Shown here in pieces: positions 5,680 to 33,408 of a DNA stretch of 33,408 bases. Within the stretch, counting starts at the first letter, position 1. Each line of letters opens with the position of its first letter. The stretch comes from Monosiga brevicollis MX1. Taxonomy: Eukaryota > Opisthokonta > Choanoflagellata > Craspedida > Salpingoecidae. The notes under the pieces are model-generated. The model searched no databases. It was not told where the DNA came from and worked only from the letters and a program-made list of their open reading frames with translations. Position numbers and translations under genes: made by a program. The DNA is taken from contig NW_001865047.1 of the NCBI RefSeq assembly GCF_000002865.3, positions 199,795 through 233,202 on the forward strand. The letters are read 5' to 3'.

Positions 5680-7241
5680 ATGGCATCGACTTTATCGGGA
5701 TCGCGGCTCGTGCTGCGTGATGCCCGTATCACGGATCGACCGCGTCTGTTTCATGCCCTCTCCGACGGTATCTATGGCGGACATGACTACCTGTACGCTC
5801 TTGATTCCTCCATCTTGTGCTCTGTTGGTTGGCTCGACCGTAATCCCCCTCGAGCCTCTCCCTCCTCACATCCATCAACCTGGTGGTCCGCAACACGCCG
5901 CTCTTGCTCTCTCGCTCACGGGTAACGCTCGCCGATCAACAGGCCCTTGTTCTTTGAAAAGTGGCTTCACGATGATCTCCACCACATGATTGTGGCTGAG
6001 ATGGAGGAGGCGACCACGGCCGCAGAGCCCCACCCTGAGCTAGTGGGGCTTGACACGATTGGTCTCTACGATCAGGGCGCCACGGTTCTCTTTCAGGCCA
6101 TGCGTGTCAACCCGCGCTTTCGCGGACAGGGCCTTGCCAAGGAGCTCAGCGAGGGCGTGCGTCGCCTGGCACTGGCCCGATTTCCCAACGTGCGCCGGCT
6201 GCGTGCCGTGATCCAGCACCACCATACCTCGTCGATCCGCGTGCACGTAGCCCAGGGCTATCAGTGCCTTCATCGCGAAGCCTTTGGCATGGCCGCCATT
6301 GATGGCCGAGGGATGACCGCCCTTGCCCGCCGGTATGCCACGGCGGCTGCCCTCCTCGTGCAGCTGTCGGAAACTTGCGGTGGTTCCGCCGGCCACGTCC
6401 AGGCCCACGCACAGAGTTCGCAGGTTGATGTGCGGCTCGTGACAGCCCGTGAGCTCTGGGCAGGCTTGGCAGCCCTTGACGCAACCAAGCGGGCACAGTT
6501 GCTGCCTCATAACCTCTTTCTCGTCGATTGGATGCCATATGAAGCCACTTTGGATAATTTGTGCTTAATGGAACAATCTCTCGGTATGACTGCGTCTGTG
6601 CGTGGTTTGCCACTTCAACCAATGCAGTCGACCCGGTTCCATGCCTGACGTGCTTGTATGTATGCTCCGTCTCGCTGCCTTTGTCCTTTCTTCTTCTTCT
6701 TCTTCTTCCTGCTTTCCTTTCGTTTCGTGTTTCGACCCGCGCACAGACATGGCCTTTTTAGCGGCGCTGGATTCGCAGACCGGCTTGGTGGGCTTGGCTG
6801 TTTGCCAGCGCTCCGCTCGGTGCAGGTTGGTGTTTATCTGCCTCTGCGCGCCCCCGATACGTTTGTTTACACCCTACCCTGTCTTGCGCCTCGGGCTGAT
6901 GCTAGTCTCCCAATCTGGCTGACCTCCCGCTGTTGTTGTTGCGTGCCTTGTGTAGCGGGCAGCACCTCTTTGCTTGTGTCCGGTGCGACGGCGATCCGAT
7001 GCTGTTTGCGCGCTTGGCCGACGCCGCACTCGTGCTGTTTTGGCACGGATGTGCTTATCTCTGCCTTAGCTATGACCAAGCCCTGCGCGATAAGATAAGC
7101 CCCGCCGAGGACCGCCCCGACGCTCGACCGGTCCCATGCCTGACAGCCATGGCAACGCGCCTGCCCCTCGATTTCTCCGCCGACTACATGCACGGCTCTC
7201 AAGCAGTATATGAACTGGCCATTGAGCACGCTTCGACTTGA
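5680..7241 (+). CDS. GNAT-family N-acetyltransferase, NAT16 / histidine N-acetyltransferase-like
   Basis: Predicted acetyl-CoA-dependent N-acetyltransferase. The exon model is 5680-5792, 5943-6583, 6747-6825 and 6956-7241 (372 aa), with phases matching at every junction. Splicing exon 1 to exon 2 restores HDYLPLFFEKWLHDD, typical of this group. GNAT motif A is RFRGQGLA at residues 96-103 (R/QxxGxG/A acetyl-CoA pyrophosphate loop). A second conserved block is LVDWMPYEATLDNL. Vertebrate NAT16 proteins are about 370 aa with the same order: N-terminal GNAT fold plus a C-terminal extension containing a D-W-x-P-(Y/L) block. The substrate is unknown; histidine is suggested only by family resemblance. 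The start ATG follows a CT/CA tract and is the first ATG in frame. No signal peptide or membrane segment is seen, so a cytosolic location is likely. Confidence 0.8.
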
Positions 7242-8280: not shown

Positions 8281-9914
8281 CTAGTTAGAATCAGCCTCGT
8301 ACTGCCAAGGCAGGTTGAGAACCTCGAGAGGGAAGTCATCGGGAAGGGCCGGGGGCTGGAACTCAGCCGAGTCGCCACTCTGATCGGGGACGTAGGCAGA
8401 GAAGGCGTAGATGAAATCAGCCTTGGCAAAGCCGTTGAAAGTAGAAGCCGCCGCGCCCGTGTAGGCGCCCATGCCCGCCACGTAGAGCCACTCGCCGACG
8501 TCCAGGTCAGGGAGTTGGCACGACTTGGCAACGCAGTCAATGCTATCGCAAGTGGGGCCCCAGACGGTGCTATTGTACTTCTTGCCCGTGGCCTTCTTGT
8601 AGTTGAGGGGCTGGAGCTCGACGTCAGCGTGGTCAAAGATGATGCAGTTGAAGGAGCCATACACGCCATCATTGACAAAGTAGTTGACCATGGCACCGGC
8701 CGGGATGGTCTCAAGCTCATCGGCATCAAGCATACCCTGGAAGGTAGTCTCGGAGGGCGAGATGTCACCGCTGGTCTCGGGAGCCACGACGCGCTTGGCA
8801 ATGACGCTGAGGGCCAGGGTCATGGCGTTGGCGGCGTAGTAACGTCCAGGCTCGGCAATGAGGCGCAGGCCTGACACGTCGCTAAAGTGGTTGGCGACAG
8901 CATCGCGGATGGAGTTGGCGATCGACTCGAAGCGCACCTTGGGGGTGCGACCAGCAACGGCCTCGCCAGGGAAGCCGCCTCCGACGTCGAGAACGGTAGG
9001 GGCAAAGCCATAAGCTTCGGCGTCGCGGAAGACCTGGCGGGCCTTGGCAATGGCATCATCGTAGACAGCGGCATCGGTGCAGCCACTGCCAACGTGGAAG
9101 CTAACGCCAGCAAGGTTGAGACCAGTGGCCTTGCATGCCTCGATCAACGAGGTGGTCTGCTTGCCGACGACGGCGCCAAACTTGAGGCCGAGACGGCAGG
9201 CCGACTTGCTGTCATCGGCGAGGATGCGAAGGACGACCGAGGCCTCGGGGTAGATGCCAGCGATCTTGCGGAGCTCCTCAGCAGAGTCAAAGGTCATGAG
9301 GGTGACGCCAACCTCCTTGGCGTAGCGAATGTGTGAGGCGGGCTTGCAAGGGTTGGCATCTATGGAACGGAAAAGGAAAGCCCAGATGTGAGATTTGTTG
9401 AAGAGCAAAACAAGAAAGAACAAGAACAAAAGCAGCAAACGCTGAAAGACACCTGCGGGCGTGTGGACGAGCAAAGGCAAGGGGATCAAGGGAAAACCAA
9501 CGTACAGATGATGCGTTCGGGGGTGACACCAATGCCGAGGACGGCTTCAATCTCAGCACGGCTGGCGCAGTCAAAGTTGGCACCGAGGGAGGCGAGGCAG
9601 CGAAGGATCATGGGATCCGGGTTGCACTTGACGGCGTAAAAAGGGGTCACGTCAGGCAGCTCCTGCTTGAAGAGGTGGTGTTGGCGATAAACCGAGCCGA
9701 GGTCAACGAGGAAGAAGGCGTGCTCCTCCTTCATGACACCGGCCTTGATGACGTGCTTCAGGGTGGAGCGGAGGTGATCATGGCGGTTGCCCTTGAGCGG
9801 GATGGCCGCCAAAGTAGGGGTTTCCTCATCATTTTCGGGTTTGTCTTCAAACCCCAGATAATCCTCGGGCAGGTCGGCCTGGATCAGACCAATGGGGGCC
9901 TCAACATCAACCAT
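8281..9914 (-). CDS. ODC1: Ornithine decarboxylase
   Basis: PLP-dependent decarboxylase that converts ornithine to putrescine, the first committed step of polyamine synthesis; cytosolic, active as a homodimer. Two exons, 9914-9506 and 9359-8281, join in phase to give IIYANPCKPASHIRYA; the product is 495 aa. Visible family residues: PLP Schiff-base lysine K96 in PFYAVKCN, H225 and S228 in FHVGSG, the phosphate-binding GGG at 263-265, E306 and R309 in EPGRYY, active-site C407/D408 in WGPTCDS, and Y436 in GAYTGA. All key ODC residues are present. The N-terminus is about 30 residues longer than in animal ODC. The C-terminal tail (after about residue 460) is short and ends YEADSN. Closely related decarboxylases (arginine, lysine) share the fold, but the C-D pair and overall match favour ODC. 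Confidence 0.95.
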
Positions 9915-12278: not shown

Positions 12279-12768
12279 GACGGCGGTCGTCGGGTCGGAG
12301 TTTAGCAAAAGTGTGTGATCAAGCTACAAAAGTGCCCAACGCTCGCGTCAACCGGCGACAAAGCAACAAAGCAACGCTCCTCCTTGCGGTGCACTCTTTT
12401 CTCTTTTTGATTTTTCCCTTTTCGGGGGTTTTCCCTTTGGGTTATGCTTGTGGCTGTGTGGAGTGTGTGGAACAACGTGGTGGGGGGCACCAAACGTGTG
12501 AAAGAACAAAAGAGCGTAGTAGCAAAGTCCTTTTCAAGAGTTGTGTGTCTTGTTTTTCAGCAGAAAGTTGGTCTTGAATTGGGATCGCGGCAAAAACCTG
12601 GCCTAACTTATTCGTGATTTGCATTCAACCGTAGAATAATGAAAAAGAGTTGTTGTTGTGAGCCACGAGGATCATAAATTTGCTGACATTGAGAAACAAA
12701 AACAATTGAGGTATATATGTACTATTATCTCATCCAGCCCACAAGCAGTGCATTAGCTTGCGACCATC
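12279..12768. other. Intergenic region upstream of the tRNA pair
   Basis: No supported gene. It contains T-rich stretches (about 12400-12440) and an AT-rich segment (12625-12735) just before the first tRNA, which may help Pol III initiation. Confidence 0.4.
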
Positions 12769-12909
12769 GATGCCGTGGCCGAGTGGTTAAGGCGTTTGGC
12801 TGCTAACCAAATGGACTCTGTCCGCGTAGGTTCGAATACTACAAGACGTTGTTCATTGGCTTGATTGGTCTGTACACCATCGAGCACAACGAATATCCTG
12901 CCGGCATCG
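12769..12909 (+). tRNA. tRNA-Ser(GCU), copy 1, with a 59 nt insert in the T arm
   Basis: The acceptor stem GATGCCG (12769-12775) pairs perfectly with CGGCATC (12902-12908), followed by discriminator G. The A box is TGGCCGAGTGG. The anticodon arm is TTTGG-CTGCTAA-CCAAA (anticodon GCT). The long variable arm is GGAC-TCT-GTCC, as in serine tRNAs. The T stem 5' strand GTAGG and loop TTCGAAT end at 12837. The matching 3' strand CCTGC appears only at 12897-12901, so 12838-12896 is an insert. The insert folds: 12847-12852 pairs with 12886-12891 (6 bp), and 12859-12869 pairs with 12876-12885 (10 bp with one bulged T). A nearer CTAC (12839-12842) could also close a 4 bp T stem. Oligo-T runs at 12918-12921 and 12926-12929 fit Pol III termination. 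The insert could be an unusual intron, a retained arm or a disabling insertion. Confidence 0.75.
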
Positions 12910-13195
12910 GTTAATTCTTTTGCTCTTTTGGCCTCTGATCTCTTGTGCGACCTGAAGAAGTGAGGTGGGCGTCAGGCGGCCAGTATGTCGTAGCCCGGCT
13001 ACCCCCCTGTTTTTTTTTGATGCTTGCTTCCACCGATCAAGTCGGCCGATCTTCCCTTCCTCCTGAGACAGTTCCTGGAGAGAGCAAAGATTTGAACGCA
13101 CAGTTTTTCGTTGAGCAAAATCATGCTGACAATCGAGGCGATTCAAGTAATAAATAAGTTATATAACAAATTATCGTTCGTCGTTATCAACCCTC
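12910..13195. other. Spacer between the two tRNA genes
   Basis: This 286 bp spacer shows no gene. The sequence just before copy 2 is AT-rich (13141-13185), resembling the AT-rich flank of copy 1 in composition but not in sequence. Confidence 0.5.
12918..12929 (+). terminator. Pol III oligo-T terminators of tRNA copy 1
   Basis: Two TTTT runs lie 9 and 17 nt after the discriminator base. Their position fits RNA polymerase III termination just beyond the distal acceptor strand. This supports the full 141 nt unit as the transcript. Confidence 0.6.
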
Positions 13196-13337
13196 GATGC
13201 CGTGGCCGAGTGGTTAAGGCGTTTGGCTGCTAACCAAATGGACTCTGTCCGCGTAGGTTCGAATACTACAAGACGTTGTTCATTGGCTTGATTGGTCTGT
13301 ACACCATCGAGCACAACCGAATATCCTGCCGGCATCG
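13196..13337 (+). tRNA. tRNA-Ser(GCU), copy 2, with a 60 nt insert in the T arm
   Basis: Identical to copy 1 across the tRNA and insert except for one extra C near 13318 (ACAACCG for ACAACG), which bulges the outer helix of the insert. The insert spans 13265-13324; the T stem 3' strand is 13325-13329, the acceptor 3' strand 13330-13336 and the discriminator G 13337. Similarity to copy 1 stops almost exactly at the tRNA ends: the flanks differ within a few bases on both sides. The sharp boundary argues that the whole unit, insert included, is the conserved gene. A T7 run at 13343-13349 is a good Pol III terminator. Confidence 0.75.
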
Positions 13338-13342
13338 GTAGA

Positions 13343-13349
13343 TTTTTTT
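13343..13349 (+). terminator. Pol III T7 terminator of tRNA copy 2
   Basis: Seven T residues begin 6 nt after the discriminator base of copy 2, a strong Pol III stop signal. Confidence 0.7.
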
Positions 13350-13567
13350 GCTCTTCCTTGAAGCACGATTGGTGTTTATCAATCAATGTCCCCCTTATCT
13401 CCTTCCTCAGACTTTTTACCCCCTCATCTTCACGGTGTCACGTCGATGAGGGAATTCAATTTTGTAACTCAGGGCTGGAGGCAGTCTAACGAGGTGTGAG
13501 GGACTTGCTCGTGCACGCCAAATGTTCACTGCCGTGTGGCGTATCGGAGACGCTTCAAAGGGGCCAC

Positions 13568-14855
13568 TCACGCCTCGGCTCGAGCGTTCAGCTTGTTGCT
13601 GAGGGAGCGGAGGGCCATGTCGACAGCAATGGTAATGAGAACGCTGGTCACCACCATGCCGGCTTGTGCGGCTTGCGGATAGCCCACACCGTGAAGAGCA
13701 AAGGTCCACAGCGATAAGACGGCAGCCATGTTGGCCTGCAGTCCCCACCGATAACGACACAGTCCATGCACCAGAAGAGCTCAATGTGAGTGGGGCTACA
13801 AGACTGACGACAACAACGAGTCAGGAGACGTGGGGTGTCCCGCGGTTCCAACATACCGCACACGTGGCCAGCTTGCCTTCACCGCGTGCCTGGATGGCGC
13901 GCTTGGGCGCCGTTGAAAAGTAGTCTTGGAAACTGGGGAGGCGGAGGCGGTAAAAGTTGAGTGATGAAGCTGCATGCCTTTGTGTGGTTGCTTTTGTTTG
14001 AATGTCGAGGTCAAAATCAGGCGGGAAGATCTGATGCGCATGTTCCACATACCGAACAATCGCCAGGGTTGCCTGCACGGCAATCTTGATGTAGGCGGCA
14101 CGTCGCCAGAAGGTGCCGAGCGCCGAGCTCAGCGGGCTCATCAGCAACGCTGTCAACATGCCAATGTGGAAGAGCTGGGCGAGGAATGTTGCAAAGCCAC
14201 AGCCGATAAGAGAGCTCAGTGCTGAAGATGGCCTTCATCCTTGTGCTAAACTCACCTTGTCCACTTGGGCATCGAGAAAAGCCCCAAACTTGCCGTCGTC
14301 GCCTATGGGTCATCAAGCCGTGCAAAGAGCCGATTTTGGCGTCAAGCGAGAAAAACCAGGCGAAAAGCCGTGGAGGGAGAGCCGGGCAGCGTGTCCATGC
14401 GAGTTTGCCAAAAAGGGTGTGGCATACCTCCGGCACGGCCCTTGTTGTGGTCGGCGCGGGCTACGGCTCCATCCAGACGATCCAGCATGTCATGCAGCAA
14501 GGCCAAGCCACCTGCAAGTTGACAGATAACGCAGCACAAGCGCGGCACAGTGAGCCTGGATGGTTTTGTTGGTCAAAACTTGCAGGTTGGGGATCAGCAG
14601 GTATGTGCGTGCGTGTCAACGTTACCAACCGGCTGCGGCCAGGTAGGTGGGCGCGGGGGACTGCAGGAGGTGGATGCAGGGGATGAGGCACGCGCCCGCG
14701 GCAAAGGTAATGGCGTTGGGACTGAGGCAGCGCGGAAAGAAGCGCGAGTTGGCCAGGCTCGACATGAGCCGGTTCAACGGGTCATACACGAAGCGATGGT
14801 GCCAGCTCAAGATGGGCAGCGCCAGTGCATCGGGCAGCAACTGCAGCATCACCAT
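13568..14855 (-). CDS. CDP-alcohol phosphatidyltransferase family enzyme
   Basis: Integral membrane enzyme that transfers a phosphatidyl or phospho-alcohol group from a CDP-activated donor in phospholipid synthesis. Six exons (14855-14630, 14511-14428, 14302-14256, 14174-14053, 13932-13857, 13735-13568) join in phase to 240 aa. The N-terminal region contains LSPNAITFAAG, typical of the first membrane helix. The family signature D-x2-D-G-x2-A-R...G-x3-D-x3-D is complete: D86, D89, G90, A93, R94, then G110, D114, D118 (FGAFLDAQVDK). The gap between R94 and G110 is 15 residues rather than the usual 8. Further hydrophobic segments follow: LFHIGMLTALLMSPLSSAL, MAAVLSLWTFALHGVGY and MVVTSVLITIAVDMAL. 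The motif style (FGAFLD..VDK) is closer to phosphatidylglycerophosphate, phosphatidylinositol or cardiolipin synthases than to choline phosphotransferases. The acceptor alcohol cannot be assigned. Confidence 0.85.
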
Positions 14856-23328: not shown

Positions 23329-23966
<638 letters not shown>

Positions 23967-29880: not shown

Positions 29881-30204
29881 GTGCCTGGTGCCCTGGTTCT
29901 GACTCTCTGATTCTTTGATTCTCTGGTGCGAGCCCTCTAGTCTTATGGTCCTTGGCTCTCGGAAGCAAGCGAGCTTGTCGTTTGCGTTTCACAGCTCTTT
30001 TGGGCTCTGGTCGCCTTTTTTCTTTCCATCCAGGCCGCGTCATCGTGACAACGCCGCCGGGCATTCCTCAGGGGCCCGCTTTTGTTGAGCTTGTGCCAAC
30101 GTGGCATTGTAGCAAGCAAGCGAGATCACTTCAAACCAAAGGGGTGGAAGCTTGGGCCAAGGTCCGCGAGGCATCTCTGACGTTTCATTTTGCCACCAGC
30201 CATC

Positions 30205-31141
30205 ATGGGCGCCGTCATGTCCTGGATGTGGCCGCTGCGCGAGCATCGCATCGTCTTAGTCGGCTTGGATGCCGCGGGCAAGACCACCATTCTCTACCAC
30301 CTCAAGCTCGGAGAGGTGCTCCAGACAATCCCCACCATTGGCTTTAACGTCGAGCGCGTTGATCAGGATAACAAGAAGCTGGTGCTCTGGGACGTTGGCC
30401 TACGCTCTGCCGCCCGCCCACTTCTCCATCATTACACCGTCGACGCCGAAGGATTCATCTTCATCCGTAGGTCCCCGCATCGGCCAAACGTCAGCGGAAG
30501 AAGGGCGCTTCCCAAGGCTCTACCCCTTGCCACCGTGCTGCGTGACCGTCCGTTGCTTCCTCATTGCACATTTTGCGCGCAACGTTGTCATTGGCAGTTG
30601 ATTCGGCCGATAGGGAACGGCTCAGCGAAGTTCGCGAAATGCTCGATTTCAGCCTTTTGAAGGCTTCCCCCCGCACCCCCATTCTATGTGTGTTTATGCG
30701 GTCTTCTCGTTGACCCCCGCCGCCCAAGCATTCGTCCCTTTATTTCGCCCATTCAGCGTCGTGGCCCACATGCATGCTTTGGCATGACTATGCTCCTCCT
30801 CACCACTCTCTTGGTGCTCCAGTCGTGCTGAACAAACAGGACTTGGCCGGCGCCATGACCATAGACGAGTTTAAAACCGACTTTCTTCAGTCTAGCGATA
30901 TGAAGCGGCCATTGTACGTTGCCTGGTGCTGCGTTGTGTCGAGTTGGTGTTTCACACCGCCATCTGCATGCTGCTCTCCAAGCTCCTGCCTACTCAGCTC
31001 ACATGAGACGCGACTTGCTTGGTGTTGCCTTTGGGGACCTCGGACAGCCACATCATTGCCATCAGCGCCAATACCAAAGAGGGCATTCAGCAGCTGCAGG
31101 ATGACGGCCTAAGATGGCTCGCAGGCTCTTTATGCAAATAG
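30205..31141 (+). CDS. ARF-family small GTPase with altered switch II
   Basis: Predicted membrane-trafficking GTPase. Four exons (30205-30466, 30598-30687, 30823-30913, 31048-31141) join in phase to 178 aa, the usual ARF size. Gly2 after MGAVMSWMW suits N-myristoylation and the hydrophobic start suits the amphipathic helix. The P-loop is GLDAAGKT (20-27), switch I is IPTIGFNVE (42-50), G4 is NKQD (121-124) and G5 is SAN (154-156). G3 is WDVG (62-65), but the following residues are [12 protein letters not shown] where ARFs have GQ plus a basic stretch and RPLWRHY. The catalytic Gln (Q71 of ARF1) is replaced by Arg67 and the following Gly by Leu66. The rest of the fold looks intact, so the protein may bind GTP but hydrolyse it poorly. 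A sequencing error seems unlikely, because the frame is preserved on both sides. ARF versus ARL cannot be decided. Confidence 0.88.
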
Positions 31142-31736: not shown

Positions 31737-33237
31737 TTAAAGGGTATCAATGCGCAGGTGGTGCTCCGACGTTTGATGCGTCGACTGCGACGAGCCCAAA
31801 GACTCATCGGCATCCACCACATGGTCTACAAGCTCCACGTCAGTCGATATCTTGATAGCTGTTGCCTGGGTCGCGGTTGCTTCGCTTGATTCCGTTTGTT
31901 GCTACGTCAATACACACACCCACGCATTTCGAAATGAACGGCAAGCGCCTGCAATTGGAAAAAAAAAAAAACAAAAAAAAAAAAAAAAACAAAAACAAAA
32001 AAACAAGCATGCACAACAGCTGGGAGTTGACTTACGCTCTTGCCAAAGTTACGGTTTGTGAACCACAGCATGCCGAAATGGACGAAGCGCCAGAAGATGA
32101 CCCATGCAAGTACAACTACCCAGTCCTCCCAGATCTTGACATCGTCATCATACTTGAAGAGCTGTGTCAGGGGAACAAGGATCAAAAGACATGAGAAAAG
32201 ATATGTCTGGCAGTCATGAATAGATGCGAGCATAATTCAACCCGAGCCCACCCATCGCGAGAGAACAACTGACCGCAATCAACAAGTCGTTGCCGTCGAT
32301 CGAGGTCATGCCGTTGATGGGCTCAATGAGCTCATAAGTTTGACCACGCATAGCATTGGTCATGGAACCACGTGTGCCCCAAGCTGCCAGAGGACATTGC
32401 AAACGCCAGACGATGAATCATGAGTCGTTGTAAAGCATCGCGCGCTTGTGGCACGATCCTTGTCGACCTGAGCGAGGTAGACTTGTGCGTTTGAGCATTG
32501 TGCGATACATACTGCTGGGAATGATGTAGGGCACCCAAGATACGGCCGGCGGCATGTCATCGACAGGCAGGAAGAACCCTATGTAACACACACACAATAG
32601 GTCAGGCGACGGAGGCGCGTCGGCAGGGTTCGTCGACAGGGTTGCAGAGTACGCAAGCCATTCAGGATCGATGTACACCACCCCAATTGACCGTACCAGG
32701 GAAGAGGAAGAGCAGGCCCAGCACGATCATGGAGAACGACTGCAGCGAGGCGACAAGACGCATCGGATTACAAACGAGTGGACAAGTGAGGCAGACGCAA
32801 GTGCACGGTGGCACGGCCAGATGTCGCGGGCGCACACGTACGACAGAGAGCATGGGGTTTTTGAGACCTTCCACGACCGTCAGGACAATGGCCTCCATCA
32901 GCAGCATCAGCGCAAAGGCGGTCAAGACGGCGTAGGCAAAGGCATCAAAGGCATCGTTGAAGCCGGCCATAAAGTGGAGCGGAATTTCGTAGGCCAGGGC
33001 GCAGATAAAAGTGTAGGGCATGGAAGCGATGAACTGGGACACGCAAAAGCTGCTGAGGCGGTAGGCGCCATTGACATAATCTTGCTGGACGACGCGGCGA
33101 TCGACGCAAAAGGTCGGGGCACCGGCCACCACAGAGAACAACACGACCCAAATGTTCATAAAGAGAGCACCCGTGACCTCGGTCAGGCGAGACACGCTAT
33201 GTGCTGTACGCCAGTACAGACTGCCAATGATCAGACC
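31737..33237 (-). CDS. ABCG-type ABC transporter, C-terminal (membrane) part, truncated by the window edge
   Basis: Partial gene. The exons present are 33237-32842, 32739-32697, 32578-32513, 32383-32274, 32161-32036 and 31850-31737; phases agree. The encoded part starts GLIIGSLYWRT and covers the ABC2-type membrane domain of the White/ABCG subfamily: GALFMNIWVVLFSVVAGAP, then ENG-like QQDYVNGAYRLSSF, PYTFICALAYEIPLHFMAGF, FAYAVLTAFALMLLMEAIV, SFSMIVLGLLFLFPGGFF, and a last helix in WVVVLAWVIFWRFVHFGMLWF. The tail after NRNFGKS is acidic and Ser/His-rich. The ATP-binding half and upstream exons lie beyond the right edge. The exon between 32513 and 32383 is uncertain: ABCGs usually have a region like RYAYEALL here, and a fragment in another frame (RDALQRLMIHRLAFA) may belong to a missed exon. 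Substrate is unknown. Confidence 0.85.
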
Positions 33238-33408
33238 CTGAGCATCGTGGTAGGAAGGAAGCCACAAGCGAGGACATGGGTCGACACGACACAAGCGTGA
33301 GGTTTGCCCAGTGCAAGCTCTTGAAAAAGAGACGAAAAAAAAAAAAAAAACATAAAATTAAAAATAATATTCAAGCTTGAATCACCCCCCCCCCCCCCCC
33401 CCCCCCCC
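33238..33408. repeat. Right edge: poly-A and poly-C tracts
   Basis: An A-rich stretch (about 33336-33366), a 12 bp palindrome TTCAAGCTTGAA (33371-33382) and a terminal poly-C run (33386-33408). This would lie inside the ABCG gene, in the intron before its first visible exon. No coding sequence is seen. Confidence 0.6.

Follow-up and report, generated by a model that had tools for sequence, protein, structure and literature searches.

The nuclear genome of the choanoflagellate Monosiga brevicollis carries tRNA-Ser(GCU) and tRNA-Lys(CUU) genes with inserts at unusual positions and, judging from the gene sequences, these inserts are very probably non-canonical introns of functional nuclear tRNA genes, which the SEN endonuclease would remove. 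Two interrupted Ser(GCU) genes lie in the window (the whole stretch of DNA that was analysed, 33,408 nt; GC 0.51-0.59), and five interrupted Lys(CUU) genes were found outside it. The original prediction, made for the Ser pair, had weighed an intron against a retained extra arm. The intron is favoured because the junctions are motif-like, because all five Lys(CUU) genes, which lie on two other contigs, are interrupted at the same T-loop site, and because the inserts vary while the exons stay constant. In 7/7 of the Ser and Lys genes, the inserts lie away from position 37/38 and their removal gives an intact tRNA.

The two Ser(GCU) genes were confirmed at 12769-12909 and 13196-13337 (Table 1). 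As predicted, their T arm is split, by 59 nt in copy 1 and 60 nt in copy 2 between T-loop nucleotides 59 and 60, and the arms are otherwise intact, with 7/7 acceptor pairs, 5/5 T-stem pairs (one G-U) and a 7-nt T loop once the insert is removed. Excision of the insert from either copy yields one identical 82-nt tRNA-Ser(GCU), a full cloverleaf in ARAGORN. ARAGORN and the Rfam tRNA model detected the 5′ part of both genes; ARAGORN misplaced their ends inside the insert (12851 in copy 1, 13278 in copy 2), and the 3′ half, T CCTGC CGGCATC G, sits 59/60 nt further downstream than in an uninterrupted gene. Pol III-type T runs follow both copies, and the likeness between them is confined to about the tRNA span (12763-12927 and 13190-13355), the 150-nt flanks being without clear similarity; both features had been noted before. 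Conservation of the insert is seen only between these two tandem copies and would by itself be weak evidence.

Table 1. Features of the window and of the interrupted Lys(CUU) loci on other contigs (positions refer to the window unless a contig is given).
Feature	Position	Strand	Basis or remark
GNAT acetyltransferase coding exon	5926-6645	+	
Ornithine decarboxylase coding exon	8284-9546	-	
Ser(GCU) copy 1 upstream TATA-like element	12712..12718	+	from -57
Ser(GCU) copy 1 exon 1, tRNA positions 1-59	12769..12836	+	ARAGORN, in-silico splicing
Copy 1 acceptor 5′ strand	12769-12775	+	
Copy 1 D arm	12778-12793	+	
Copy 1 anticodon GCT	12802-12804	+	
Copy 1 variable arm	12813-12823	+	
Copy 1 T stem 5′ strand	12826-12830	+	
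Copy 1 T loop TTCGAA	12831-12836	+	
Copy 1 central helix 5′ strand TTCG (T loop 54-57)	12831..12834	+	
Copy 1 probable intron, 59 nt, between positions 59 and 60	12837..12895	+	in-silico splicing; borders are one of three equivalent registers, chosen by motif geometry
Copy 1 central helix 3′ strand CGAA, intron 3′ end	12890..12893	+	3′ bulge TA^T at 12894-12896
Copy 1 exon 2: T60, T stem 3′ CCTGC, acceptor 3′ CGGCATC, discriminator G	12896..12909	+	
Copy 1 Pol III-type T run	12918..12921	+	
Ser(GCU) copy 2 upstream TATA-like element	13160..13166	+	from -36
Ser(GCU) copy 2 exon 1	13196..13263	+	anticodon 13229-13231
Copy 2 probable intron, 60 nt, one extra C	13264..13323	+	in-silico splicing
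Copy 2 central helix 3′ strand CGAA	13318-13321	+	
Copy 2 exon 2	13324..13337	+	
Copy 2 Pol III-type T run	13343..13349	+	
Arf GTPase coding exon	30181-30657	+	
ABC-2 transporter membrane part, coding exon	32665-33357	-	
Lys(CUU) cluster, four genes	C32:250954-252790		
Lys(CUU), fifth gene	C53:857446-857527		

Both helices proposed for the Ser insert are present, at 12847-12852/12886-12891 (CGTTGT/ACAACG) and at 12859-12869/12876-12885 (GCTTGATTGGT/ACCATCGAGC, with one bulged base); the extra C of copy 2 falls in the first of them. The fold of the insert alone was matched by 2/200 shuffles for copy 1 and 13/200 for copy 2, and that of the whole precursor by 9 and 10 of 200 shuffles for the two copies. 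The structure thus exceeds chance only moderately. An alternative T stem, GTAG/CTAC, can close ahead of the insert and is present in free folds. The direct repeat CGAATA occurs at both ends of the insert; a mobile insertion with a clean target-site duplication was rejected by eye, since the expected target does not stand directly after this repeat.

All five Lys(CUU) genes that we found carry two inserts each, one at 59/60 (15, 15, 15, 15 and 16 nt) and one at 66/67 (34, 34, 35, 34 and 12 nt), and all were missed by ARAGORN. When spliced in silico they give one identical 73-nt tRNA. Their exons show 0/73 differences in 10/10 gene pairs. Over both introns combined, the number of differing aligned positions, gaps included, ranges from 2 (B vs D) to 28 (C vs E). 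With gap columns taken as differences, Fisher tests of exon against intron divergence gave 1.2e-6 (A vs C) and 3.9e-13 (A vs E). Gene conversion could homogenise the exons, yet it would be required to skip the introns. In the interrupted genes the last exon matches the 5′ acceptor strand across the inserts at 7/7 pairs, with two-sided changes at 4/7 pairs between Ser GCU and AGA and at 3/7 between Lys CUU and UUU, and a T run follows the last exon in 7/7 genes.

The assembly that we searched comprises 39.47 Mb in 57 contigs. An insert-free nuclear Ser(GCU), which the original prediction had set, together with a lack of transcripts from these loci, as a sign of pseudogenes, was not found in it: a native Ser probe (8/8 candidates scored) matched the two interrupted copies and six Ser(NGA) genes, and a human Ser-GCU probe returned the same eight genes. 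Native and human Lys probes (6/6 scored each) likewise detected no insert-free Lys(CUU) but the five interrupted genes and Lys(UUU); the match of the human probe ends at base 59 in 5/5 Lys(CUU) genes and spans 1-72 in Lys(UUU). Because DNA probes pass over very common words, so that non-detection falls short of proof, and because the genome is given as 41.6 Mb in excerpts of PMC6188563, about 2 Mb more than the present assembly, the absence of an insert-free Ser(GCU) is likely rather than proved.

In a genome search with the Rfam tRNA model, 63 of 760 candidates were scored; each of the 63 gave a match at E up to 10, nine of them on the mitochondrial contig and 54 nuclear. Seven of the 54, the two Ser(GCU) and five Lys(CUU) genes, reached only 29.9-33.0 bits; the remaining 47 align over the whole model with at least 55 bits. 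A human Gly probe detected eight genes with query bases 8-63 matched, T arm included, which indicates that the first Rfam search missed genes, and a restriction of the inserts to Ser(GCU) and Lys(CUU) cannot be claimed. A human Tyr probe had no match in the genome and was uninformative. The other nuclear Ser tRNAs found have the anticodons AGA, CGA or TGA. Across 348 codons of the window's ornithine decarboxylase ORF, AGC/AGT account for 9/24 Ser codons, and therefore a Ser(GCU) tRNA is needed; the Lys codons of the same exon are AAG in 15 cases and AAA in none.

The bulge-helix-bulge motif, which had been suggested as a check of the junctions, was recovered in part: an outer helix of 4/4 pairs, a central helix of 4/4 pairs and a 3-nt 3′ bulge are seen at Lys intron 2, but no junction is strict on the 5′ side. 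Every equivalent splice register was scored against the archaeal rule, which asks for a central helix of 4 bp and places each cut after the second base of a 3-nt bulge. At the Ser junction 1/3 registers fits, with the central helix TTCG/CGAA at 4/4 pairs in 2/2 copies, the T stem outside it and predicted cuts at AA^T and TA^T. At Lys intron 1 the central helix has 3/4 pairs (TTCG with CGAC). The 3′ bulge is 3 nt for both the Ser intron and Lys intron 1, and the 5′ bulge is too long in both. At Lys intron 2 the outer helix CCTC/GAGG and the central helix CCCG/CGGG are complete (4/4 each) in 5/5 genes and invariant across the copies. Its inner helix starts after 4 nt in four copies and is absent in the C53 copy, where the 3′ bulge reads TG^T rather than CA^T; even so, the archaeal rule leads to the same 73-nt product. 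Covariation in the inner hairpin is slight (2 pairs, reached by 30/500 shuffles; covariation score by 7/500).

The Ser central helix was reached by 6.5% of shuffled introns with G-U allowed and by 1.1% with Watson-Crick pairs only; this helix and the direct repeat at the insert ends are one and the same observation. The value of the Lys intron 1 central helix was reached by 17-20% of shuffles, and the three Lys helix criteria were jointly met in at most 6e-5 of shuffles. The statistical weight rests on Lys intron 2, its five genes being paralogs and not independent samples, and the Ser junction is supportive only. Folding energies range from mixed to unfavourable for the motif. It is the minimum-energy structure for the T-arm domain of Ser copy 2 but is lost when the domain is cut one pair shorter; for copy 1 another fold of this domain is better by 2 kcal/mol, and in free folding the motif is absent from both whole Ser precursors. 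For the Lys 3′ half, only the C53 gene (1/5) has the intron 2 motif in its free fold. As the central helix of intron 2 uses the 3′ strand of the T stem, the other four genes fold into the T stem instead.

Canonical eukaryotic tRNA introns interrupt a 7-nt loop, closed by a 5-bp stem, after its sixth nucleotide, and have their 3′ site in a 3-nt bulge. The T-loop inserts share this loop geometry and the 3-nt 3′ bulge, so the T arm may be read as a second anticodon-like arm; they differ from the 37/38 intron in lying in the T arm, not the anticodon arm, and in that Lys genes have two. We propose that Pol III would transcribe both exons within one precursor and that the T-loop TTCG would pair with the 3′ end of the intron, fully in Ser and imperfectly in Lys, which would put the 3′ splice site in the 3-nt bulge and the 5′ site in the larger loop. 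SEN would then cut the Ser precursor at the two predicted sites, and the exons would probably be joined by RtcB. Against this reading, yeast SEN is reported in excerpts of PMC4033280 to be strict for 37/38. In pre-tRNA-Lys, intron 2 appears to have its own motif, whose outer helix would borrow the 3′ end of intron 1: this helix has 4/4 pairs with intron 1 present and 1/4 after its removal, and the helices of intron 1 are independent of intron 2. Intron 2 should therefore leave first. According to excerpts of PMC9602550, Pus4 of Cyanidioschyzon merolae is inactive on pre-tRNA with a T-arm intron, suggesting that intron removal probably precedes that T-loop modification. We lean, with less assurance than for the introns themselves, towards the broader reading that a unicellular relative of animals relies on archaeal-style splicing, in which SEN would accept an anticodon-arm-like T arm and a nested T-stem/acceptor motif and two isoacceptors would be made only via ordered non-canonical splicing.

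The genome encodes candidate components for such splicing. The catalytic SEN domain PF01974 was detected at C41:228652-228987 (60.2 bits for neighbouring pieces together) and at C42:780867-781034 (31.3 bits); against a cut-off of 27 bits, the fetched exons gave 37.3 and 25.1 for the C41 pieces and 29.3 for the C42 piece. The Sen15 family PF09631 has one locus at 32 bits, the Sen54 N-terminal domain PF12928 has one borderline locus (24 bits at a cut-off of 24), and an RtcB match is also present.

If the interrupted genes were pseudogenes, working Ser(GCU) and Lys(CUU) genes would be located elsewhere, for instance in the roughly 2 Mb of published genome size that is not in the present assembly. 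According to excerpts of PMC6188563, M. brevicollis has one Lys gene for each codon, two in all, plus five putative pseudogenes of Lys(CUU), which from the same number and anticodon are probably our five interrupted genes. The functional Lys(CUU) counted there was not found in the present assembly, and this unaccounted-for gene is the strongest point against the intron reading of the Lys genes. PMC4090602, in the part available to us, also cautions that eukaryotic T-arm insertions occur mostly in one of many synonymous genes. Here, by contrast, every copy found of both isoacceptors is interrupted. The exons have not decayed as fast as the inserts, given the invariant Lys exons and the identity of the two Ser copies over 82 exon nt, and the acceptor strands pair across the inserts with compensatory changes. 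AGC/AGT codons are used, and the other nuclear Ser anticodons found are different ones. We therefore regard pseudogenes as unlikely.

Slightly less likely still is removal of the inserts by another nuclease and ligase instead of SEN. The junctions of Ser and Lys intron 1 deviate from the strict motif, and many nucleomorph introns of Guillardia theta are described as having no defined motif (PMC3978253, excerpts); Lys intron 2, however, has both helices in 5/5 genes, and SEN domains are encoded. Retention of the insert, which would give the tRNA an additional hairpin arm in its T loop, seems very improbable. It would fit the hairpin of the Ser insert and the alternative T stem that can close before it, but Lys would then bear two inserts, the second 12-35 nt long and variable in sequence, and the T loop is required for D-loop contacts and by maturation enzymes.

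Other candidates were rejected. Self-splicing group I/II introns do not apply, as only tRNA reached the Rfam gathering score in the window and the inserts (12-60 nt) are too short; at the Lys loci Rfam gave only tRNA and one sub-threshold plastid match. The exon order is normal in 7/7 genes, which excludes permuted genes, and the insert positions 59/60 and 66/67 exclude a canonical 37/38 intron. The Ser pair is not mitochondrial: the window is on C48 (1.26 Mb), and a separate Ser(GCU) is present on the mitochondrial contig C57.

Ectopic tRNA introns have been reported from archaea, C. merolae and nucleomorphs, and in 2014 reviews the eukaryotic non-canonical introns were placed in the red alga and algal nucleomorphs (PMC4090602, PMC4033280 and PMC3978253, all from excerpts, as are the comparisons below). 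Like the M. brevicollis genes, those of C. merolae have nuclear T-arm introns, several per gene, with bulge-helix-bulge junctions and ordered removal; C. merolae has D-arm introns and permuted genes in addition (PMC3978253, PMC4090602), and no Sen15 is stated to have been identified in it (PMC4090602), whereas M. brevicollis has a Sen15-family match. The G. theta nucleomorph also has T-arm introns, some genes with two or three, and their excision was confirmed by RT-PCR products (PMC4090602). The nucleomorph is a relict algal nucleus, and its introns are 3-24 nt, many lacking a defined motif (PMC3978253). In archaea, 59/60 is a listed site (PMC4090602), and of closely spaced introns one has to leave before the motif of the other forms (PMC8450103). 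Archaeal enzymes act there, and in M. brevicollis the predicted 5′ site of Lys intron 1, like that of the Ser intron, is in a larger loop. The tRNAscan-SE 2.0 paper limits eukaryotic tRNA genes to one intron (PMC8450103).

In a limited search of the open-licence PMC literature we found no earlier report of the Ser or Lys inserts as introns. If our reading is true, no opisthokont would, as far as we searched, have shown such splicing before, and yeast SEN, with its restriction to 37/38, would not be representative of the group. Non-canonical introns would then extend to the sister group of animals, and the genes listed as pseudogenes would need correction, as would the codon-usage conclusion based on that listing (PMC6188563, excerpts). 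It also raises the testable question of whether an opisthokont endonuclease kept or regained motif-based recognition. Since ARAGORN places the ends of the Ser genes wrongly and overlooks the Lys genes, more interrupted tRNAs may hide in other protist genomes.

A TATA-like 5-mer, often near -35, was observed upstream of 21/31 tested nuclear tRNA genes. The test took in 31 of the 54 nuclear genes, and between -60 and -20 the 5-mer occurs in 5/7 interrupted and 16/24 uninterrupted genes, against a background of 8/742 window stretches. This excess suggests upstream TATA boxes for Pol III in M. brevicollis. Past the presumed terminator, GCT follows the T run in 7/7 interrupted genes (GCTCTT in 3).

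On the mitochondrial contig C57, ARAGORN names a tRNA-SeC(TCA) at L046:3593-3666, which we take to be more likely a tRNA-Trp reading UGA. In the window, a perfect 12-nt inverted repeat, TCTTCACGGTGT / ACACCGTGAAGA, lies at 13427-13438 and 13686-13697, 247 nt apart, and may be due to chance. A very long CA/GT simple repeat at about 23490-23810 is open as His-Thr or Cys-Val in several frames.
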